DNA of 64,000 nucleotides from Citrus sinensis (taxonomy: Eukaryota; Streptophyta; Magnoliopsida; Sapindales; Rutaceae). The notes beneath the pieces are model-generated. The model was not told the DNA's origin, searched no databases, and worked only from the letters and a program-made list of their open reading frames with translations. Positions 3,701 through 55,798 of this stretch are shown here, in pieces (within the stretch, counting starts at the first letter, position 1; every line of letters starts with the position of its first letter). The position numbers and the translations under genes were made by a program. The DNA lies in assembly GCF_022201045.2 (NCBI RefSeq), contig NC_068560.1:32381501-32445500 (forward strand). Reading direction: 5' to 3'.

Positions 3701-6700
3701 CTGCAGCAATGGCCTCATATTTACTCTGAAAGCTTTTGAAGTCCATCATCAAGGATTCCCATTCACTTAGCTTCTGTGTAAGATGACGATTTTCACAGGT
3801 GACATCTTGTAAATTAGATTCTAAAATTTGGTTTTGCAGAGCCATGTCATTGCATTTGGCAATGCAACTGGCCTTATACTCATTTAGGAAGTGAATATCA
3901 TTCATAGCTGTCTGCAGCCTTTGCATCAATAATTCATTGGATTCAGTTGAAAGCTCTAGTTGGTGTGAAAGTTCATCCATCTTCTCTTTCATCAGTCTAA
4001 TCTCACCACTTGCTTCAAGCAAAGTCTTCTGTAGAGTCTTTGAGAACACATCCAAGTATATATTCACAGAAAGCAATTCACAAGCTTCTTCTTCTACCTT
4101 TCGGTAAAGCCCTTCCTGCAAGTAGAGCGACCTTTTCAAATCCTCTATAAGAATATCTCCACCCAAGTGTTGTTTCTTTACCCCGATATACTGATCCTGG
4201 CACTCCAAGTGTCTGTTTGCATGGGATTCTTCCGGATTCAATTTCCGGTTTTGCACCATATCTTGGTATTCTTGACAGCTCGGTTGTGGTGAATCTACGA
4301 AAGCTTGCTTGATGAGATTCTCGTTAGTCTGATACATGGATAAAACTTGGGAAGATAGCAGTTCAAGGTCCTTCTGTAACTGGTTCACAGCAATGGAGTA
4401 ATTCAAGCGTGCTCTCTTAAGTGCTGCTTCTGCACTAACTGCCCTTCTTTCCAGCTCCTTGTTGAGCGACTCCAAGACACGTCTTTCTTCAGAAAATCTT
4501 AGTACTTGCTCATCTACGTCTAGGCGCATTGCTTCTATTTCAGCCTTAGCAGATGAAACTGTATACAGACAACTAGAATGCTCATTTCTGAGATTCTGCA
4601 ATTCTCCCAGCATATGTCTCTGGTTTTCCTCAAGCTCCTGAATGAGAGCTTCATAATAGCACTCCATCTGGTCCATTTTCTTTGCTAGGCTTTCTCTTTC
4701 AGCCTTTGACTCATCCAACTCTCTCAGAAGTTCAAAGATTTTTCCTCCCACTGAATCAGCGGGATTTACAGAACTATGTTCGTGAGATGCCAGAGCAGGT
4801 ATGCCAACACACTGAAGCATATCTAAATCCGGTTGATACAATTCTGTTTCAAGCCCAGTCCCCGATAAATATTGCTCATATTTATTCAAACTTATTTCTC
4901 CAATTTCATTCACCTTTGATCGGTCACATGTGACTAAGTTGGGAGTAGACATGGTTATTTCAGTTCCTTGTTTAACAGCTTCCCAACTGGTAAATGGATG
5001 GCATGATCTCAATTTTATTAGCCTTTCCAGATCGCTTTTTAAATGTGAACACTCTGATTTCAGTGCAGAAACCTCTTCTGCCAGCTGTTCTCCGGATGCA
5101 ATCTCAGCAGCAAGTTTCTGGGCAAAATTTTGAGCTTCCATACCTATTTCATCAGCGTGACTTTGCAAGGAGCTTACTTCAAGCTTCAGCTCATGAATAG
5201 ATGACTCGGCCATTTCCAAACAGCCTCTGAGTCTATTATTCTCTTCATGAGCAATTGCCAAGTCATTGTCTGCAGAGTAGTCTAAACCCCAGCCCGGTAC
5301 CCAATCATTGGTTCCCTGTGCTGAAAACCGCTGATCAGAAGGGTCTCCTTTCTCTTGTTGAAGACTTTGGTTATGTCCAGCCAAATCACCAGAAACTATA
5401 CTCTTAAGGCTGTCAATTTCATGTGTGCTCGATGCATCATGTTTCTCTGCATACAAACTTTCTGACGTATTAGAAGAGCTATCAAATCCAACAGCAGATT
5501 CTGTGTAATCTTCATTCAGCCCCGCCTCTTCTTCAAGTGAGGGGAGCTCCTTGGATTTATCTTTGAATCTAACTCTTGCATTGACCTATGCTTCAGGAAA
5601 ATAAAAATAGAGGGAAAAAAATTATCACTTTAGAGAAATGGCATATTTTGGTCCTAGACATCAAAATTGTTAGTTATCTAAAAACCAAACTACTAAATCT
5701 CAGGCAACAGCCAAAGATAGCAGGATGAACATTTGACATGTAGAGATACGTATTTTTAGACAGAAGAACAGATATAATGGAAAGAGACAATTTATGGGGA
5801 AGAAATGAACATTAGACACAGTTTCATTTATTTTATATTTAGCAGCCTGTGGCTTGAAAAGATTTTACACATAAACCACTGTGAGCGAAAGAACAATTAT
5901 AATTTAAAATACATGTACAAATATGAAGAACAGAAAGCACCACACCTTATCCAGCTGATTATTGATTCCGCCGCAAGATTGATCAGGACTAATTTGGTCG
6001 TTGCCTGACTGCAATCCCCTTTCTCTGAGTTCCCTCTGCTGCTCAAACTCTCTGAAAGAAAGACTAATTAGATATGAAATGGTCAACAATATCCAAACAC
6101 ACGAAATTCATATGTTTCTAATGAGGTACCTGAAACCCGTTTTAGAAGTTAGCAGCTGCACAGTGACCTGAAATTGAAGAGAGAGGGGAAAAAAAAAGTA
6201 AATATAAAAAAGGATGGGACAATGTATGCCTGTAATGCTAACAACAGAAGCACAGAGGAATAAGCTATGGCGTTACAAGAAGCTACTCAAGTACCACTGG
6301 CTTTTTATTCATATAGCAAGTATCCAGCAATGAATCACTAAAGTAACTTGCCAAAGATTATATTATGTCAGAGAAGAATTCTCACATGTAATATTGTTCC
6401 AGAATCACCACCATGAAGAGGCAGCGAAACAGTTGAAGGCTTTGATGCATCGGCATAGTCAGCAAGATTAATAGTAGCCTCACCAAGAATGCTAGACCGA
6501 GAAGAGCCCTGGCGATAATATACGGGTCAAAGACAGTTAATCTCACTTCTAACAATATGACAGTAGAAACAATCTCTAACTGAGAATGAAAATGATGCGC
6601 AAAAACTGTCCACGGATAACAGAAAGTTCAGGTTTTACACTGCGCTACAGATAACTATTTAAAATTAAGAACTTAAGTGAAAGAATCAAGATGACTACCA

Positions 6701-46858: not shown

Positions 46859-49695
46859 ATGGAGTTGGCGCGTGTGGCTTCCCAAGGCTCTTGCTTTCTC
46901 CCTCTCATAAATTTTCGAGCTCGGGCACCTGTCTCTTCCATCAGTAGCTCAGTTCCAATTTTATTTTCCTCTCATAAATTTAAATGTAAGTTCCGATCTT
47001 TATATATTTCCTTGAAGTTTTGCTCTGGAAAAATACATGAAACAAGTCGTATTACGAATTTTGTCCGTTAAAATTGAACATATTGTTTTAGTAATACCAA
47101 CTAAGCGAACAAGCTCCTAATGAGGGTAAGAATTTAATTTTTGATGATACGTTGTTTGCAAATTTCGTGATATTTATGTTGAACACCAATGGAAAATAAT
47201 AACTCAAGAGGAGGTCAGTCAGGTGAATGACTAAAATTATGTTGTCATTATTAGGTTGTCCTTTGCTGGTTAATCCGGTGAGGCTGCGAAAGTCCTCCCT
47301 TGCTGCTGTTGCTCGTGATGTAAGTGCCGTATATCATGATTCTAATGAGCCTGCTAGTATTCGTGAGGATTCCGTGATGGATGGTGAAAAGAGGGATGAA
47401 AAAGATGGTTCTAAGAGCTTGGATGATGGTAAAATGATCCGAGTATGTGACAAGCTCATTGAGGTTTTCATGGTTGACAAGCCTACACCGACTGACTGGA
47501 GAAGGTTGCTCGTTTTCAGCAAGGAATGGAACAACCTAAGGTCTAATTTCTTCAAGCGTTGTCAGGACCGAGCAGACGCTGAGGTGGATCCTGAAATGAA
47601 GCACAAGCTTCTCCGGCTTGGAAGGAAGCTGAAAGAGGTTGTTTGAGCAACTTAAATATTTAATTTCGCAATGGCAGCATTGATGTTTGCATGTCTCTTA
47701 TTCTCGTATGTTATGCTTTTTGGTTTGGTTTGGTTCTTGTTGCATCTGTTTCGATGATTTGTTGAGAGTTTCTCTTCCTCAGATTGATGAAGATGTGCAA
47801 AGACACAATGAACTTCTTGAAGTGATCAAGGCAGCACCATCAGAAGTAAGTCAAATAGTTTCCAGGCGTCGTAAGGATTTCACTCAAGAATTTTTTGAGC
47901 ATCTTCACACTGTAGCAGAATCGTATTACAATGATCCAGCCAAACAAGATGGTGAGACTGATTGACTTTGTTAATTGTCAAACCTTGTTAGAAGAGTGAC
48001 TCCACCACTCATGTGTTTCTGTCAAAACAATTTCATTGACTCAAAAGAGTAAATAATTTTCCTTAAAACCTAATTCTTGCTGGAGATGAATCTTATTTCT
48101 TAACTGTTGCTGGAGCAGAAGTCTGGATAAACAATATGAATTACATTTTGTAAAAGCTTTGAGGTAACAAACCTGCACTGTGGATCTATAATCTATTGTT
48201 ATTTTATTATTTTTATAACAACCTAGAGGATTATGAAGGATCGAGATGTCGATTTCCTTTCCAGCTTTGCAAACACCTGTACTCTTGAACCATAGAAGAA
48301 TAAGCTAGCTGACCTTAAAAATTCTTTACTCTTAATTACAAGCATTTACTGCTGATATAAAGCAGCAGTTTTTCATTTGAATCATTTCTAATTACTGTGT
48401 GATTCTTTGTACATATGTTGGAAAGCTTCCACAGGGTCTATTTTACCTTGACTCGTCACAGGGCCACTAAACCTGTCTTTGCCTAAATTGTCCAATCTTT
48501 GTCTTGCTCATCATGATATCTTGGACAGAGGGTGAATGTTCCCTTATTTTTGTCTGATCAGATATAGCAAAGCTTGGAAAATTGTGCGTGGCTGCTGTTC
48601 AAGCCTATGATACAACAACTGAGAGCATTGAAGCACTGAATGCTGCAGAGTTGAAGTTCCAAGATATTATCAATTCACCTTCTGTAGATGCTGCTTGCAG
48701 AAAAATAGACAGTCTGGCCGAGAAAAATCAACTTGATTCAGCATTGGTGCTGATGATCACCAAAGCATGGTCAGCTGCCAAGGAGTCCAACATGATGAAA
48801 GAGGAGGTTAGTAATTTGCTGCTCTAAGAAATGGCTCTTTCATCGTACAACTATTTGGTAATCATGAATTTCTTAATTTATGATTCTGGGACCAGAAATT
48901 CCATTGGTTGTGTAAATTTCTTTATCATTTTGCTTGAGAGTAATAAAGGAGGAGATAGATTCTGTGGATTAGGAGAGATAATTTGATGATCACCAACTTT
49001 TACATAATTATATAGTAAATGTCAAGTGGTCTTTGAACCAATGTATAGCCTTCTTATTTTGAAAAAAAATAGAGCCAGCTTCAGATATGGCAATGGAAAA
49101 TTTTAATTGATAAACTTGGAGGTCTGATATGTTTCTTTGCTAAGAACATTTGGTGGTTTTGATTGCTGCATACAGATTGCATAATAGAAATATTACGATG
49201 ATTAGCTTTATGGTGTTAAATTGATACAATAGTAGTTGTTCTTCCAATCTGCTCTATATAACAGGTCAAAGACATACTTTATCATTTATACATGACTGCA
49301 AGAGGTAACCTTCAAAGGCTCATGCCAAAGGAGGTTAGGATTCTAAAGTATCTTCTCACAATTGAGGATCCTGAGGAACGACTGTGTGGTCTAAAAGATG
49401 CATTTACACCAGGAGAAGAAATTGAAGGGAAGGATGTGGACACTCTGTACACGTAAGCATCAGAAATGGTTACTTTCTTATCTTTTAGCTTTATTTTGGT
49501 AATAACGTTTTACTTTTTTCTTCTCCCCATTGCAGGACCCCAGAGATGCTCCACGCCTTGATGAAAACTTTGGTGGATGCTTACAATTTTAGCCGAGAAG
49601 GCTCTCTCTTGAAAGAAGCCAAGGACATGATGAATCCCAATATGATTGAAAAGATAGAGGAACTGAGGAAGCTGGTAGAAAAGCACTTTATGTGA
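46859..49695 (+). CDS. Plastid protein like At4g37920 (endoribonuclease E-like)
   Basis: Six exons, 46859-46985, 47255-47637, 47783-47951, 48562-48806, 49265-49452 and 49536-49695, join in phase to 423 residues. The N-terminus is rich in Ser, Arg and Phe and fits a plastid transit peptide. The conserved body includes VCDKLIEVFMVDKPTPTDWR, RRRKDFTQEFFEHLHTVAES, CRKIDSLAEKNQLDSALVLM and ILYHLYMTARGNLQRLMPKE. It ends in a helical EKIEELRKLVEKHFM. From memory this matches the Arabidopsis protein At4g37920, annotated as endoribonuclease E-like, but I see no RNase E catalytic domain. The role is therefore unproven. The gene sits between two MULE-type insertions: the upstream one ends about 140 bp before the ATG, and the downstream one starts about 230 bp after the stop. 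Confidence 0.88.
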
Positions 49696-50084
49696 GAAGG
49701 ACAACTGAAACATTCTTGCTTGAAGCTCTTAGTATATTTCATCATCACCCAGAAATCTGACATAAATACCAAACCTGGAGACGTATAAATCTGCTAAGAC
49801 CACTTAGCCTTCTGCTAAAGCATATTATCAGCACCATACCTTGGCGTTCCTATAAATTTTGGGAACAAGCAGCCGTCAGCACGGCCTTTATTTGCAGCTA
49901 CCCAAGATTCTAAATTTTAATCTATTTTGGGTCATTCTATAATGCTGTAACTAAATTTACGGCATTGATGCCGTAATGGACGTGGACCGTTAGATTTGAA
50001 TAAAAAATCTCTACCATTAATTCTAAATAAATAGGTAACCTGTTACCTAAGTAGCAGGTAATTACTATTTTTTGTTCAAGTTCT

Positions 50085-52505
50085 AGGTTACATTTACCAA
50101 TTTTATGTGTGATTTACAAGTTTTATGAAACTTTTACAAGTTAATGTTGATTTACAAGTTTTATGCAATATTTACAAGTTTTTGTTTCATTTACAAGTTC
50201 TTCTTACAATTTACAACTCTAACATTAATTTACCTATTTTTTCATTAATTTACTAGTTTTATGTGTGGTTTACATATTTTATGTTTTATTTCACACTTAA
50301 TATGAATTTACTAGTTCTATATCATTTTTCTAAGTTTTTGTTTTGTTTACAAGTTTTTCGTACAAATTACAACTCCAGCATTAATTTACTCATTTTTTCA
50401 TCAATTTACTAGTTTTATGTGTGATTTACACATTTTTTATTTTATTTCACAATTTACTAGTTCTCTGTCAATTTACTAGTTCTATGTCATTTTTATAAGT
50501 TTTTGTTTTGTTTACAAGTTCTTCGTGAAAATTACAATTCCAACATTAATTTACCATGTTTTTTTTATTAATTTATTAGTTTTATGTGTGGTTTACATAT
50601 TTTTTGTTTTATTTCACACTTAATGTGAATTTACTAGTTCTATGTCATTTTTCTAAGTTTTTGTTTTGTTTACAAGTTCTTCGTACAAATTACAACTCCA
50701 ACATTAATTTACTCATTTTCCATCAATTTACTAGTTTTATTTGTGATTTACACATTTTTTGTTTTATTTCTCAATTAATGTCAATTTACTAGTTCTATGT
50801 CATTTTTATAAGTTTTTGATTTACAAGTTTTATGTCATTTTTCTAAGTTTTTGTTTTGTTTACAAGTTCTTCGTACAAATTACAACTCCAACATTAATTT
50901 ACTCATTTTTCCATCAATTTACTAGTTTTATGTGTGATTTACACATTTTTTGTTTTATTTCACACTTAATGTGAATTTACTAGTTCTATGTCATTTTTCT
51001 AAGTTTTTGTTTTGTTTACAAGTTCTTCGTACAAATTACAACTCCAACATTAATTTACTCATTTTCCATCAATTTACTAGTTTTATTTGTGATTTACACA
51101 TTTTTTGTTTTATTTCTCAATTAATGTCAATTTACTAGTTCTATGTCATTTTTATAAGTTTTTGATTTACAAGTTTTATGTCATTTTTCTAAGTTTTTGT
51201 TTTGTTTACAAGTTCTTCGTACAAATTACAACTCCAACATTAATTTACTCATTTTTCCATCAATTTACTAGTTTTATGTGTGATTTACACATTTTTTGTT
51301 TTATTTCTCAATTAGTGTCAATTTACTAGTTCTATGTCATTTTTATAAGTTTTTGTTTTGTTTACAAGTTCTTCGTGCAAATTACAATTCCAACATTAAT
51401 TTACCATTTTTTTCATTAATTTATGAGTTTTATTTGTGGTTTACATATTTTATGTTTTATTTTACACTTAATGTGAATTTACTAGTTCTATGTCATTTTT
51501 CTATGTTTTTGTTTTGTTTACAAGTTCTTCGTACAAATTACAACGCCAACATTAATTTACCATGTTTTTCATTAATTCACTAGTTTTATGTGTGGTTTAC
51601 ATATTTTTTGTTTTATTTCACACTTAATGTGAATTTACAAGTTCTATGTCATTTTTATAAGTTTTTGTTTTGTTTACAAGTTCTTCGTGCAAATTACAAT
51701 TCCAACATTAATTTACCATGTTTTTCATTAATTTACTAGTTTTATGTGTGGTTTACACATTTGTTTGTTTCATTTCACACGTTATGTCAATTTACAAGTT
51801 GTATGTCATTTTTCTAACTTTTTGTTTTGTTTACAATTTCTTCTTGCCAATTACAACTCCAACATTAATTTACCCATTATTCCATTAATTTACTAGTTTT
51901 ATGTGTGGTTTACAAATTTTTTGTTTCATTTCACACTTAATGTCAATTTACAGGTTGTATGTCATTTTTCTAAGTTTTTGTTTTGTTTACAAGTTTTTCT
52001 TGCCAATTACAACTCCAACATTAATTTACCCCCTTTTCCATTAATTTACTAGTTTTATGTGTGGTTTACAAAGTTTTTGTTTCATTTCACACTTAATGTC
52101 AATTTATAATTTCTATGTCATTTTTCTAAGTTTTTGTTTTGTTTGCAAGTTCTTCTTGCAATTTACAACTCCAACATTAATTTACCCCCTTTTCCATCAC
52201 GTTACTAGTTTTATGTGTGGTTTACAAAGTTTTTGTTTCATTTCACACTTAATGTCAATTTATAATTTCTATGTCATTTTTCTAAGTTTTTGCTTTGTTT
52301 ACAATTTCTTCTTGCAATTTACAACTCCAACATTAATTTACTACATTTTCTATCAATTTACTAGTTTTTTTCTATTTTTAATTTTTTTTAATTTTGTAGA
52401 CCAATTTACCACTCTAACACTAATTTATCCGTTTTACCTTCAATCTACGAGTCATACGTGTGGTTTAGAAATTTTTTGTCTTATTTCACATTTATTTGGA
52501 ATTTG
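50085..52505. repeat. Satellite-like tandem array inside the Pack-MULE
   Basis: About 2.4 kb consists of tandem units with the core TTTACAAGTTCTTCGTACAA, then TTACAACTCCAACATTAATT, then ATCAATTTACTAGTTTTATG. In the middle part units alternate between about 155 and 191 bases, giving a 346-bp higher-order repeat (for example starts at 50759 and 51105, and at 50950 and 51296). The outer units are more diverged. Open frames of up to 152 codons in this array are by-products of a stop-poor repeat and not genes. Confidence 0.9.
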
Positions 52506-54082
52506 GGTTATTTAGTTTAGGTCAATTGCCTCAACTTAAATTCAATGTGAAAATGGTTAAAGAGTTGGATTATTGACATTTTATGATTTAGATAGAATGA
52601 TATAAGGGTGGGCATGAGTTGGGTTTGATAGGGTTAGTGAAATTCTAACCTGGTCTACTTTTTAATGAGCTGAGATAAAATCCATCCAACTTAACTAAAT
52701 AAACTTGTTTAACCCAATTTTACCCAAACCTTATATCGTCTGGTTAAGTTGATTAGGTTGAAGGTCAAATCAAAATTTTAAATTGAACAATGAAAATGAT
52801 ATAAAACTTGAAATGAAACTTATTAAAATCAAATATAAATCTTTTATAACATGAAATTTTCATTCACTATATAGTGTACGTAAAGAAAGTTAATAAATTA
52901 ACTATCTTTAAATTAAGAAAATTTCCACAAAAAGCATATAGACTTTATTTCTCCTACATCTCCTTTTCCAATTCCAAATTCAAACTTTTTAGATAATTAG
53001 CTAGCATCATATACAAAAATAAAATGAAAGTGATATATAATTATGTGCCATTAAGTATTCACTAAAAAATAAAAAGAAATTAAAAACAACTTACTTTTAT
53101 ATTAATCTTATAAAATAATAAATTTACTTATAAGAGAGTGTGATTTTGGTTTTGGAATTGTAGTCTAGAGTAGCAGATGCAAGAATGAAATAGCCTCTTC
53201 TATTAAAAGATTAAAAAGAATAAAAAATTAGATAAGCCATTTAAGTCTTTATAATTTTGCAATTGAGAATTAACACATTATCATTATCCTTCTTCTTCTT
53301 CTTCTTCTTATTATTATTATTATTATTATAGATTTGGTTGGGTTAGACTAGTTAATTATAATTGATCCAGCCCAAACTAATTATTAATTAGGTTTGAAAA
53401 AAACAGACTCAATTAAACCACAATAATGTGCTCATGGTGCATTTACTAATCAGTAATCAGAACAGGCTACAATCAAAATCAAGAATGTGAATAAGAATAA
53501 GTTATTTATTTGAGCTGTAGAAATTGAAGTCGGAATGAGATTCATTTCCATCGATGTGTTTAATTTGTCTTGAAATCGGAATGAATTATCATAATTTACT
53601 TAAATGCCCTTTGTTGATTATTGTCAATTGGTGGTGGTAATAATAATAATAATAATAATAATCATCATCATCATAATAATAATATTTATTAAAATAGTAT
53701 TATAATTATGATTACTAATTCATTATTGTTATTATTTATTAATTTCATGATTTTGTTATATGATTATTATTTATGAAAATATTATTGTAATCAAACTTTA
53801 TAATTATTATTAAAATAATAAGTTATTATTATTAATATTTTATTATATTATTATTTAGTAAAAATATTATTATATTTATAATTTTGTTGTTATTATTATC
53901 AGTATGAAATTATTTCATGATTATTTATTATAATATTATTATAATTCTAATTCATTATAATTTATTAATCTTTTATTATTATTATTTATTTAATATTATC
54001 TAATTAAAATTTATAATAATTAATTAAAATATTTTTATAGTTATTATTTATTAAAAAAATTCAATATTATAACAATTATGGC
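52506..54082. other. AT-rich inner part of the Pack-MULE with trinucleotide runs
   Basis: No gene. CTT/ATT runs lie at 53289-53330 and AAT/ATC runs at about 53638-53690. The stretch 53640-54060 is almost pure A and T built from ATTATT-type units. Confidence 0.7.
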
Positions 54083-54312
54083 ACCCTCCCATATCATAGC
54101 AATGACAGGACCGGAGGTTATGTACCCAATCAGAGCACCAAAGAAAGGCTTTGACAACAAATCCTCATAGTGCTTCTGAGCAAAAGGGCGGTCCACAGTC
54201 ATAAGCTTCAAACCCTTCAAAGAGAAACCCTTCTTCTCAAATCTGCTGATGATTTCAGCAACGAGCCTCTTTGGACCCCATCGGGCTTGATCATGATGAA
54301 AGTTTGTTCCAT
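54083..54312 (-). pseudogene. Captured first exon of a nucleoside diphosphate kinase gene
   Basis: From an ATG at 54312 the minus strand reads [16 protein letters not shown], the standard NDPK start. A one-base deletion near 54264 then shifts the frame, and the family sequence continues as [54 protein letters not shown] and IWEG. It stops near 54083, about where an exon border lies in many NDPK genes. The active-site histidine region is not included. The copy is broken and incomplete and cannot give active kinase. Confidence 0.85.
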
Positions 54313-54410
54313 TTCTTTGAGATTCAGAGAAACCCAATTGTTTGAGAATTGAGTGAAATACCACCACTTATAGGTGAGAGAATAATGCATGCTCTATATA
54401 TATACAAATT
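54313..54410 (-). promoter_or_regulatory. Likely captured NDPK promoter and leader
   Basis: Upstream of the captured ATG on the minus strand is a TATA-like CTATATATATAC near 54394-54405. About 80 bases of typical CT- and A-rich leader run to the ATG. This suggests that promoter and first exon were taken together. Whether it drives transcription is unknown. Confidence 0.4.
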
Positions 54411-54988
54411 TGCTGTCTTGGTCAAAACAATGCAAATGCGATAGAGGAGAATCAGTAAAGAATGACGAACCCAGCCCGGTTCTCCTCTTGACTCCTGACG
54501 CCGAGTCGTTATCGTCGGACCGAAACCACTTCACGAACACGAACCTAGCTGCTTCACGAACACGAACCATTGTAGAGCTTCTTTCTCACTTCTTTTTGGC
54601 TCAAACAGTTTTCAAAGCAAAGATTGCAGTAAAAGAGGAACGATCGAGGAAACAAAATTCGGGTTAGCCAGCAAACCCGATTGCTTCGAAAATACAAAAT
54701 CCGGCGTGCTACGATTTTTAGATTCGATTCCGGGACCTTCGAATTATGACCAGACTTTGATTCTATTTGGACTTTCGTAGATTTCAATTTTAAAATATAT
54801 ATAATTTTGAAATTTTAACCGGTTATTTTTTTTAAATAAATGTTTAACCGGTTGTAAACCTGTTAATGAAATTTTTTTAAATACTTTTATTATATTATAG
54901 TTATTAGGTATCGTTGATCTAATCCAATGGCCCACGTTTATTACGGTATCAATGCCGTAAATTTATTTACGGCATTATAGAATTTTCC

Positions 54989-55798
54989 ATCTATTTTATT
55001 TTAGTCGTTTACGGTGTAGGCATTTTGGAGCCATGTCTCCTTTTGTATACTAGGGCTCTTCTTAGTCGGAAAATTGTGTGAAACATTTGATACCATTTAT
55101 TATGTATCTGCCAATAATAAATATTATATCTTACTCATATGATAACGCAAATGATAAATCTTTCACTTTGATATGCAATGAAGAGATATGAAATCATATA
55201 TGATGAGCAATGTTAGGAACGAGAGCACAAGTTGCATTTTTCAGGTTTAAGATTGCACCGACGGTTTAGTACTTTAGTTAGGTAAACGCATACGGATGGG
55301 AATGCGTATAAAAATTTTGAGAGTAAACGACAAGTCGTTTGGAGGCAGTAAATGCAGCTTGAAATTTCAATGTTTACATGACATGTCGTCTAATTCGCTG
55401 AATTATGCATAAAATATTAAGATACCGATGAGACCGATACAATTTTTGAAAATTAAATTTATTTCCCGAAAATTTAAATCTTTTTTCTAACGCAATTATG
55501 TATTCCTCCCTTATTATGAAAAAAAAAAGGTTTAATTTATTATATTTGCTCATCCTTAATCAAAATTGAAAGTTGTACGTTAACCATACATGATAGCTTA
55601 GTCGATTGCACGGTGGTTCCTTACGATCATGAATCTCCTCCGATGATCTTGCTTCGTTGATTTTAATTTCCAGCCCCGCTTCTTCTCAATCTCGGTAATT
55701 TGTCCTTTCAAGAGAACTCAATTCCCTAATTTTGGTTCCAATCTGCAGCAATTAGAATTATAAATAAATTGATAAATTTGTTAACAAGAAACAAGAGG
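54989..55798. other. Upstream region of the ATG14-like gene
   Basis: The first 9 bases are the right target duplication of the Pack-MULE. The rest is AT-rich spacer and promoter. A CT-rich leader (about 55620-55700) with a possible donor CTCG/GTAATT near 55696 precedes the ATG at 55799. Confidence 0.5.

Follow-up and report, generated by a model that had tools for sequence, protein, structure and literature searches.

A young Pack-MULE of sweet orange whose cargo most likely derives from spliced NDPK1 RNA

Within a 64,000-nucleotide stretch of the Citrus sinensis genome (NC_068560.1, positions 32,381,501 to 32,445,500 of the forward strand; this whole stretch is called the window), a Mutator-like element (MULE) of 5060 bp at window positions 49929-54988 carries a 302-bp fragment of the host gene NDPK1 from which the introns of the covered part are exactly missing. 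In its form the element is an ordinary young Pack-MULE, and its unusual part is the RNA-derived nature of its cargo. Because the introns are missing exactly, the fragment seems to descend from an mRNA and not from the DNA of the gene. We regard the cargo as most likely RNA-derived, either through a retrocopy or directly from cDNA, two routes that look the same in the sequence they leave behind. The fragment and its junctions, in window coordinates, are as follows.

54082..54383, minus strand: captured NDPK1 fragment of 302 bp, comprising the 5' untranslated region, exon 1, exon 2 and part of exon 3, without introns
54263/54262 and 54214/54213, minus strand: exon junctions of the fragment; a one-base deletion adjoins the first of them

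The minus strand of the element contains a frame of 107 amino acids that matches the Pfam domain NDK (E=1.8e-18). The parent gene, at C3:51911760-51912824, aligns with the element in three blocks, which are adjacent in the element and set apart by 213 and 212 bp in the gene. Both gaps are GT..AG introns, and the fragment lacks precisely these two, which are the two introns of the part that it covers. When spliced, the parent reads as a single kinase frame; unspliced, it is full of stops. The alignment of the spliced parent with the window copy runs across both exon junctions (304 columns with 278 identities, 24 mismatches and 2 gaps), and the one with a further copy of the element on C3 has 302 columns with 280 identities, 20 mismatches and 2 gaps. 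The homology starts at ATTCTCTC, about 30 bp past a TATATA of the parent, a position that we predict to be the cap site of the parent, and it stops within exon 3. A search of the genome found no NDPK1-like locus beyond the parent gene and the copies of the element, and the remaining kinase matches outside these copies are at 38-62% identity.

The one-base deletion by the first junction, which shifts the reading frame, is common to the three aligned copies (L001, L003 and L004; L002 equals L001), and the capture therefore most likely happened only once. With this frameshift and with its 3' part missing, the fragment encodes no complete kinase. Substitutions relative to the parent number 3, 4 and 7 at codon positions 1, 2 and 3; these numbers are too small, and the frameshift is shared, so that we make no claim of purifying selection on the fragment. 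Neither a poly(A) tract nor a target duplication of the fragment's own was seen when repeats were sought by eye around the two joins.

The element that houses this fragment is delimited by the following features.

49929..54988, no strand assigned: non-autonomous MULE of 5060 bp, with an identical copy at G000:C9:25450866-25455925
49920..49928, no strand assigned: left target-site duplication (TSD), ATCTATTTT
54989..54997, no strand assigned: right TSD, ATCTATTTT
49929..49999, plus strand: left terminal inverted repeat (TIR), matching the right end at 59 of 71 nt
54918..54988, minus strand: right TIR
50092..52368, plus strand: minisatellite array with a period of about 156 bp (191 and 346 bp in mid-array) and subunits of about 19-20 bp
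54384..54988, minus strand: right subterminal region with the TIR, parts of which are common to L014-L018, L020 and L022

The direct repeat on the two sides, ATCTATTTT, is a perfect one of 9 bp. At the ends, the 59 matches among the 71 outermost nucleotides compare with a chance maximum of 45 in 200,000 random pairs of 71-mers from the same window, and the inverted arms at 49934-49999 and 54918-54983 (66 nt) are 86% complementary. The 156-bp minisatellite borders the left TIR in many members of the family, and the length of the array varies between copies.

Three full-length siblings with both ends and the cargo are found beyond the window, at C9:25450866, on C7 (4689 bp) and at C3:1655994 (4949 bp). 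Each of the four full copies has a 9-bp TSD of its own, namely ATCTATTTT in the window, ATAAATAAA on C9, TTATTATAA on C7 and TAAATATAT on C3, the lengths on C9 and C3 being less certain because these two sit in AT simple repeats. Three other family members, L029, L034 and L038, all have TSDs of 10 bp, which in L034 is revealed by shifting the end by 2 nt. A search of the genome with the whole element returned at least 114 matched stretches, many of them pieces of tandem arrays, and one with the 75 nt of the right end returned at least 60 rows at E<=1, 41 of them at E<=3.4e-12 and 19 short and weak; both counts are lower bounds, with only the best candidates scored. The NDPK1 element thus belongs to a mobile family that is repeated in the genome and occupies different insertion sites. 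At L022, another locus (C9:11061838 onward), the right end recurs together with the beginning of the cargo, and 2,500 interior bases of this locus read N. At L022:5843-5934 the right terminal repeat is apparently part-doubled, as two overlapping matches to the left TIR.

Relative to the window, the C7 copy differs at 13 of 2580 sites, plus 21 gap columns, in the right 2580 bp, and the C3 copy at 91 of 2529 sites, plus 73 gap columns, in the right part of the element. The C9 copy is identical to that of the window in 5060 of 5060 bases. The element must therefore have moved recently, and judging from this identity its last spread is very recent. Zero differences across 5060 bp, the minisatellite included, are striking, and could also be ascribed to an assembly duplication or to gene conversion rather than to recent transposition; as the two copies have separate TSDs, and as BLAST detects no similarity between their flanks over 1.5 kb per side, we consider this very improbable. 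Because the identical copy suggests such recent movement, cultivars or bud sports could differ for the element, which makes it a possible marker.

An earlier note on this stretch, written from its letters alone, had delimited a Pack-MULE at 49929..54988 by its TIRs and a perfect 9-bp target duplication, had called the insertion fairly recent on the strength of that duplication, and had held that its reading would fall if the genome contained no other copies. The limits stand. The class is borne out by the MULE-type TSD and TIRs, by a FAR1/MULE transposase in a relative with like ends and by the host fragment from NDPK1, a cargo that the note had left unnamed. The recent date is on firmer ground with an identical sibling than with the TSD alone, and the search for siblings with the end sequence, which the note had proposed, brought up the family, the one with the whole element its full copies.

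How the cargo came to lie in the element can be read in part from its joins, at or near which three features are found.

54082..54085, no strand assigned: CACC at the left capture join, common to NDPK1 and the sister MULEs L005, L007 and L030, and CGCC in the C3 copy L004
53638..54053, no strand assigned: AT-rich (TAA/TAT) low-complexity stretch immediately left of the captured fragment
54395..54404, minus strand: TATA-like box belonging to the MULE, also present in the sisters L032 and L033, 21 nt upstream of the fragment

The five sisters that were read here (L005-L008 and L030) track the window element until the left join and then diverge. At this join L005, L007 and L030 read ATGGCACCATC, the element ATGGCACCCTCCC and the NDPK1 gene TTCACCCTCCC, with CACC in common. 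At the right join, L032 and L033 share TAATGCATGCTCTATATATATA with the element and diverge at the start of NDPK1, with one common base. Among the loci examined, most of the sisters reaching only about 1.5 kb past the join, none but the copies of the element has the left context followed by the right one. The left half is like L005-L008 and L030 and the right end like L014, L032 and L033; the element has the look of a mosaic in which a filler joins two MULE subtypes. Since the fragment lies in sense behind the TATA-like box of the MULE, a transcript from this box through the NDPK1 fragment would be possible.

As to the enzyme that moves it, a FAR1/MULE query of 746 amino acids had no match in the window or in L001, and among the loci examined it matched only L023, L025 and L030. 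In Pfam, none of ten further frames of the element scored above the cut-off (the 107-amino-acid NDK frame is counted apart), and one weak row for Kazal_2 (E=0.002) reached 18.6 bits, the cut-off being 22.8. A 6.3-kb family member at C1:8271711-8278028 has the left end with the array, the right end and a decayed FAR1+MULE gene, and the 9-mers on either side of it match in 8 of 9 positions. At C3:30212198-30214435 (L025:3198-5435), there is an open frame of 746 codons with matches to FAR1 (E=6.8e-18) and MULE (E=9.4e-27), and the C1 locus matches it at 95% identity along a 2360-bp stretch that takes in most of the frame. A left end at 30200767 and, on the other side, a right end at 30223605 enclose this frame as well as a cytochrome P450 (P450) cargo; lying within a 22.8-kb composite, the frame may hence belong to a nested element. 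Through the shared ends, a FAR1-type transposase can be tentatively tied to the window element.

Taken together, we hold it highly probable that the element is a non-autonomous Pack-MULE whose filler came from the spliced mRNA of the host gene NDPK1, was acquired once during repair and has been moved in trans. In its left half (TIR, 156-bp minisatellite and AT-rich middle) it resembles one MULE subtype, and in its right end (TATA region and TIR) another, with the 302-bp filler between them. The filler, derived from the spliced NDPK1 mRNA, would have been acquired a single time before the known copies separated, probably, as we infer, in the repair of a break or gap inside a MULE via short homologies. 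It would already have been DNA at that moment, be it as an NDPK1 retrocopy that is now lost or outside the assembly, or as free cDNA. Since then, a transposase that we infer to be of the FAR1 type of MULEs would have moved the element in trans, with 9-bp duplications at AT-rich sites.

A number of observations weigh against this account. At the left join, two of the five sisters (L006 and L008) differ by one base and the C3 copy reads CGCC and not CACC, such that the 4 nt of CACC are likely, though not certain, to be the original microhomology there; the microhomology of the right join is a single nucleotide, which is near chance. The cap site of the parent is a prediction, and a retrocopy step that has left neither poly(A) nor a duplication of its own leaves no direct trace. 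The fragment and the NDPK1 gene are 91-93% identical, which would allow for a source in some gene copy that has diverged or been lost. Finally, an intact transposase was not seen within an element that has a TSD and the two ends of the family. On C1 the gene has decayed, and the open frame on C3 is part of the 22.8-kb composite, to which no ends of its own were assigned.

The origin of the filler can be explained in several ways. A classical NDPK1 retrocopy, mediated by a long interspersed nuclear element (LINE) or a long terminal repeat (LTR) element, may have inserted in or beside the MULE and been trimmed, or may have been copied into it from another place; in either case the MULE would have inherited it as ordinary DNA. 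The exact loss of two introns and a beginning at the predicted cap site are hallmarks of retrocopies, and PMC4838847 deals with RNA-based duplication through LINE-1-like elements in dicots. However, one would expect from a retrocopy a poly(A) tract, a duplication and the 3' half, all of which are missing, and the short homologies at the joins are not part of this expectation; furthermore, the genome search found no free-standing NDPK1 retrocopy. We thus grant this origin slightly less than an even chance. The filler may instead be an NDPK1 cDNA that was captured directly when the cell repaired a gap left by MULE excision or a break that had arisen at the AT-rich stretch. This would suit the mosaic structure and the CACC and one-base microhomologies next to an AT-rich low-complexity stretch, and would resemble the model of microhomology and gap filling put forward for animal Pack-TIRs (PMC8277862). 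Yet the capture of a since-lost retrocopy would yield the same sequence, and the right match is so short, and the left one so altered in the C3 copy, that we regard direct capture as a real possibility that we would not expect to hold. That free cDNA, made from mRNA by the reverse transcription of another element, serves as filler in the gap repair of MULEs, and that a cut-and-paste transposon in this way carries RNA-derived pieces, here with the NDPK1 cap site close to the likely start point of the transposon itself, strikes us as rather unlikely; if true, it would make such a transposon a vehicle for RNA-derived gene pieces.

The donor might also be of another kind, either an ordinary gene after the loss of its introns or a paralogue without introns, captured as genomic DNA as in other Pack-MULEs. 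The 91-93% identity to the sole NDPK1 gene found leaves room for another donor. But that gene has introns, the other kinase matches lie at 38-62% identity, and the start at the predicted cap site would then be a coincidence, for which reasons we consider an intronless donor improbable.

Genomic capture seems to occur in the same family, as judged from a second group of Pack-MULEs (L024, L026, L027, L028 and L029, on C4, C3 and C9) that carry a 5' fragment of a P450 gene together with upstream sequence. By their end positions these elements measure 5.7 to 11.3 kb, and one lies within the 22.8-kb composite. The P450 fragment aligns with its presumed parent gene on C1 in two blocks (94% and 96%) with a gap of 120 bp between them. 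The edges of this gap, examined with 85 mid-gap bases left out, show no GT..AG, its length is a multiple of three, and by eye the edges seem to read on as continuous P450. Beyond the first search block, on its upstream side, the fragment stays collinear with the gene for at least another 112 bp and takes in a TATA-like stretch. Having no splice sites, and with homology upstream of that block, the fragment was rejected as a second spliced capture and is likeliest a genomic capture with an internal deletion. Given that one family seems to hold both a genomic and a spliced capture, it is the more telling that NDPK1 comes without introns and without upstream sequence. Two other candidates were also set aside. 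An 880-bp gap in L032 (element positions 4626 to 4629) was not counted as splicing, because it is bounded by TG..CA with a flanking repeat of 4-5 bp; the insertion, L032:2811-3690, in the end of this sister MULE is by eye the likelier a solo LTR, a GT..AG reading being also possible there. For a conserved short frame of the right subterminal part ('...FVKWFRSDDNDSASG...'), no Pfam domain reached the cut-off; the best was DUF5990 at E=0.087, and the frame of the window itself had none.

Two further suggestions of the earlier note concerned an autonomous partner and the gene next to the element. Possible traces of such a partner are a decayed FAR1/MULE gene on C1 and the open 746-codon frame on C3; an intact one with both ends and a TSD was not found. 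The neighbouring gene, the polyadenylation region of which the insertion may have replaced according to the note, has its stop codon at 49693-49695, 224 bp before the TSD. Since three hexamers similar to poly(A) signals (at 49762, 49784 and 49851) lie between this codon and the element, the idea is without support, even if hexamers of this kind abound in AT-rich DNA and cannot decide the matter. A Pfam scan of the last two exons of this gene, At4g37920-like according to the note, gave no match.

Pack-MULEs of plants were reportedly described by Jiang and colleagues in 2004, and capture by them is usually explained by the copying of genomic DNA. The window element has TIRs, a TSD in the range of about 9-11 bp, a repeated family, a host-gene fragment with its parent elsewhere and no transposase of its own, as a Pack-MULE should; of the marks of a retrocopy it has the precise intron loss and lacks the poly(A) tract and the separate target duplication. 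It is like the Pack-MULEs of plants as presented in PMC13317346 in its MULE ends, TSD, gene fragment, want of a transposase and several copies, and differs in its spliced cargo, the beginning of which coincides with the predicted cap site; the main text of that review, from 2026, does not contain the word 'intron'. With CitMule of Citrus clementina (PMC4334395), which is of the FAR1 type and has 9-bp AT-rich TSDs in three of four copies, it has in common the transposase family, the type of TSD, recent movement and imperfect terminal repeats. CitMule, to which it is likened by description, is 6.8-6.9 kb long, has a transposase gene and a TIR of 65 bp at 78%. The hyperactive MULEs of sweet orange are likewise compared by description and not by sequence: three of them cause 31 of the 40 spontaneous structural variants detected, and one insertion measures 5086 bp (PMC9832951).

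In animals, microhomology was reported at one or both breakpoints of 190 (67.6%) Pack-TIRs, and a gap-filling model was favoured (PMC8277862). The same study discarded multi-exon parents with intronless captured copies in order to control for retroduplicates; as this pipeline drops intronless captures by design, spliced cargo may be under-counted. Our literature search, for which most subscription papers were beyond reach, found no plant Pack-MULE with spliced cargo. The sole precedent found for RNA-derived cargo in a DNA transposon is a hAT element of Pseudocercospora fijiensis with an intronless histone H3, for which the authors infer that a transcript or a retrocopy was captured (PMC6710886). 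Both this element and ours are DNA transposons with a spliced host gene; the former is a hAT and not a MULE, resides in a fungus and not in a plant, and most of its copies hold the third exon only and are damaged by repeat-induced point mutation. The spliced cargo of the sweet orange element would show that MULEs can take up and spread RNA-derived sequence as well.

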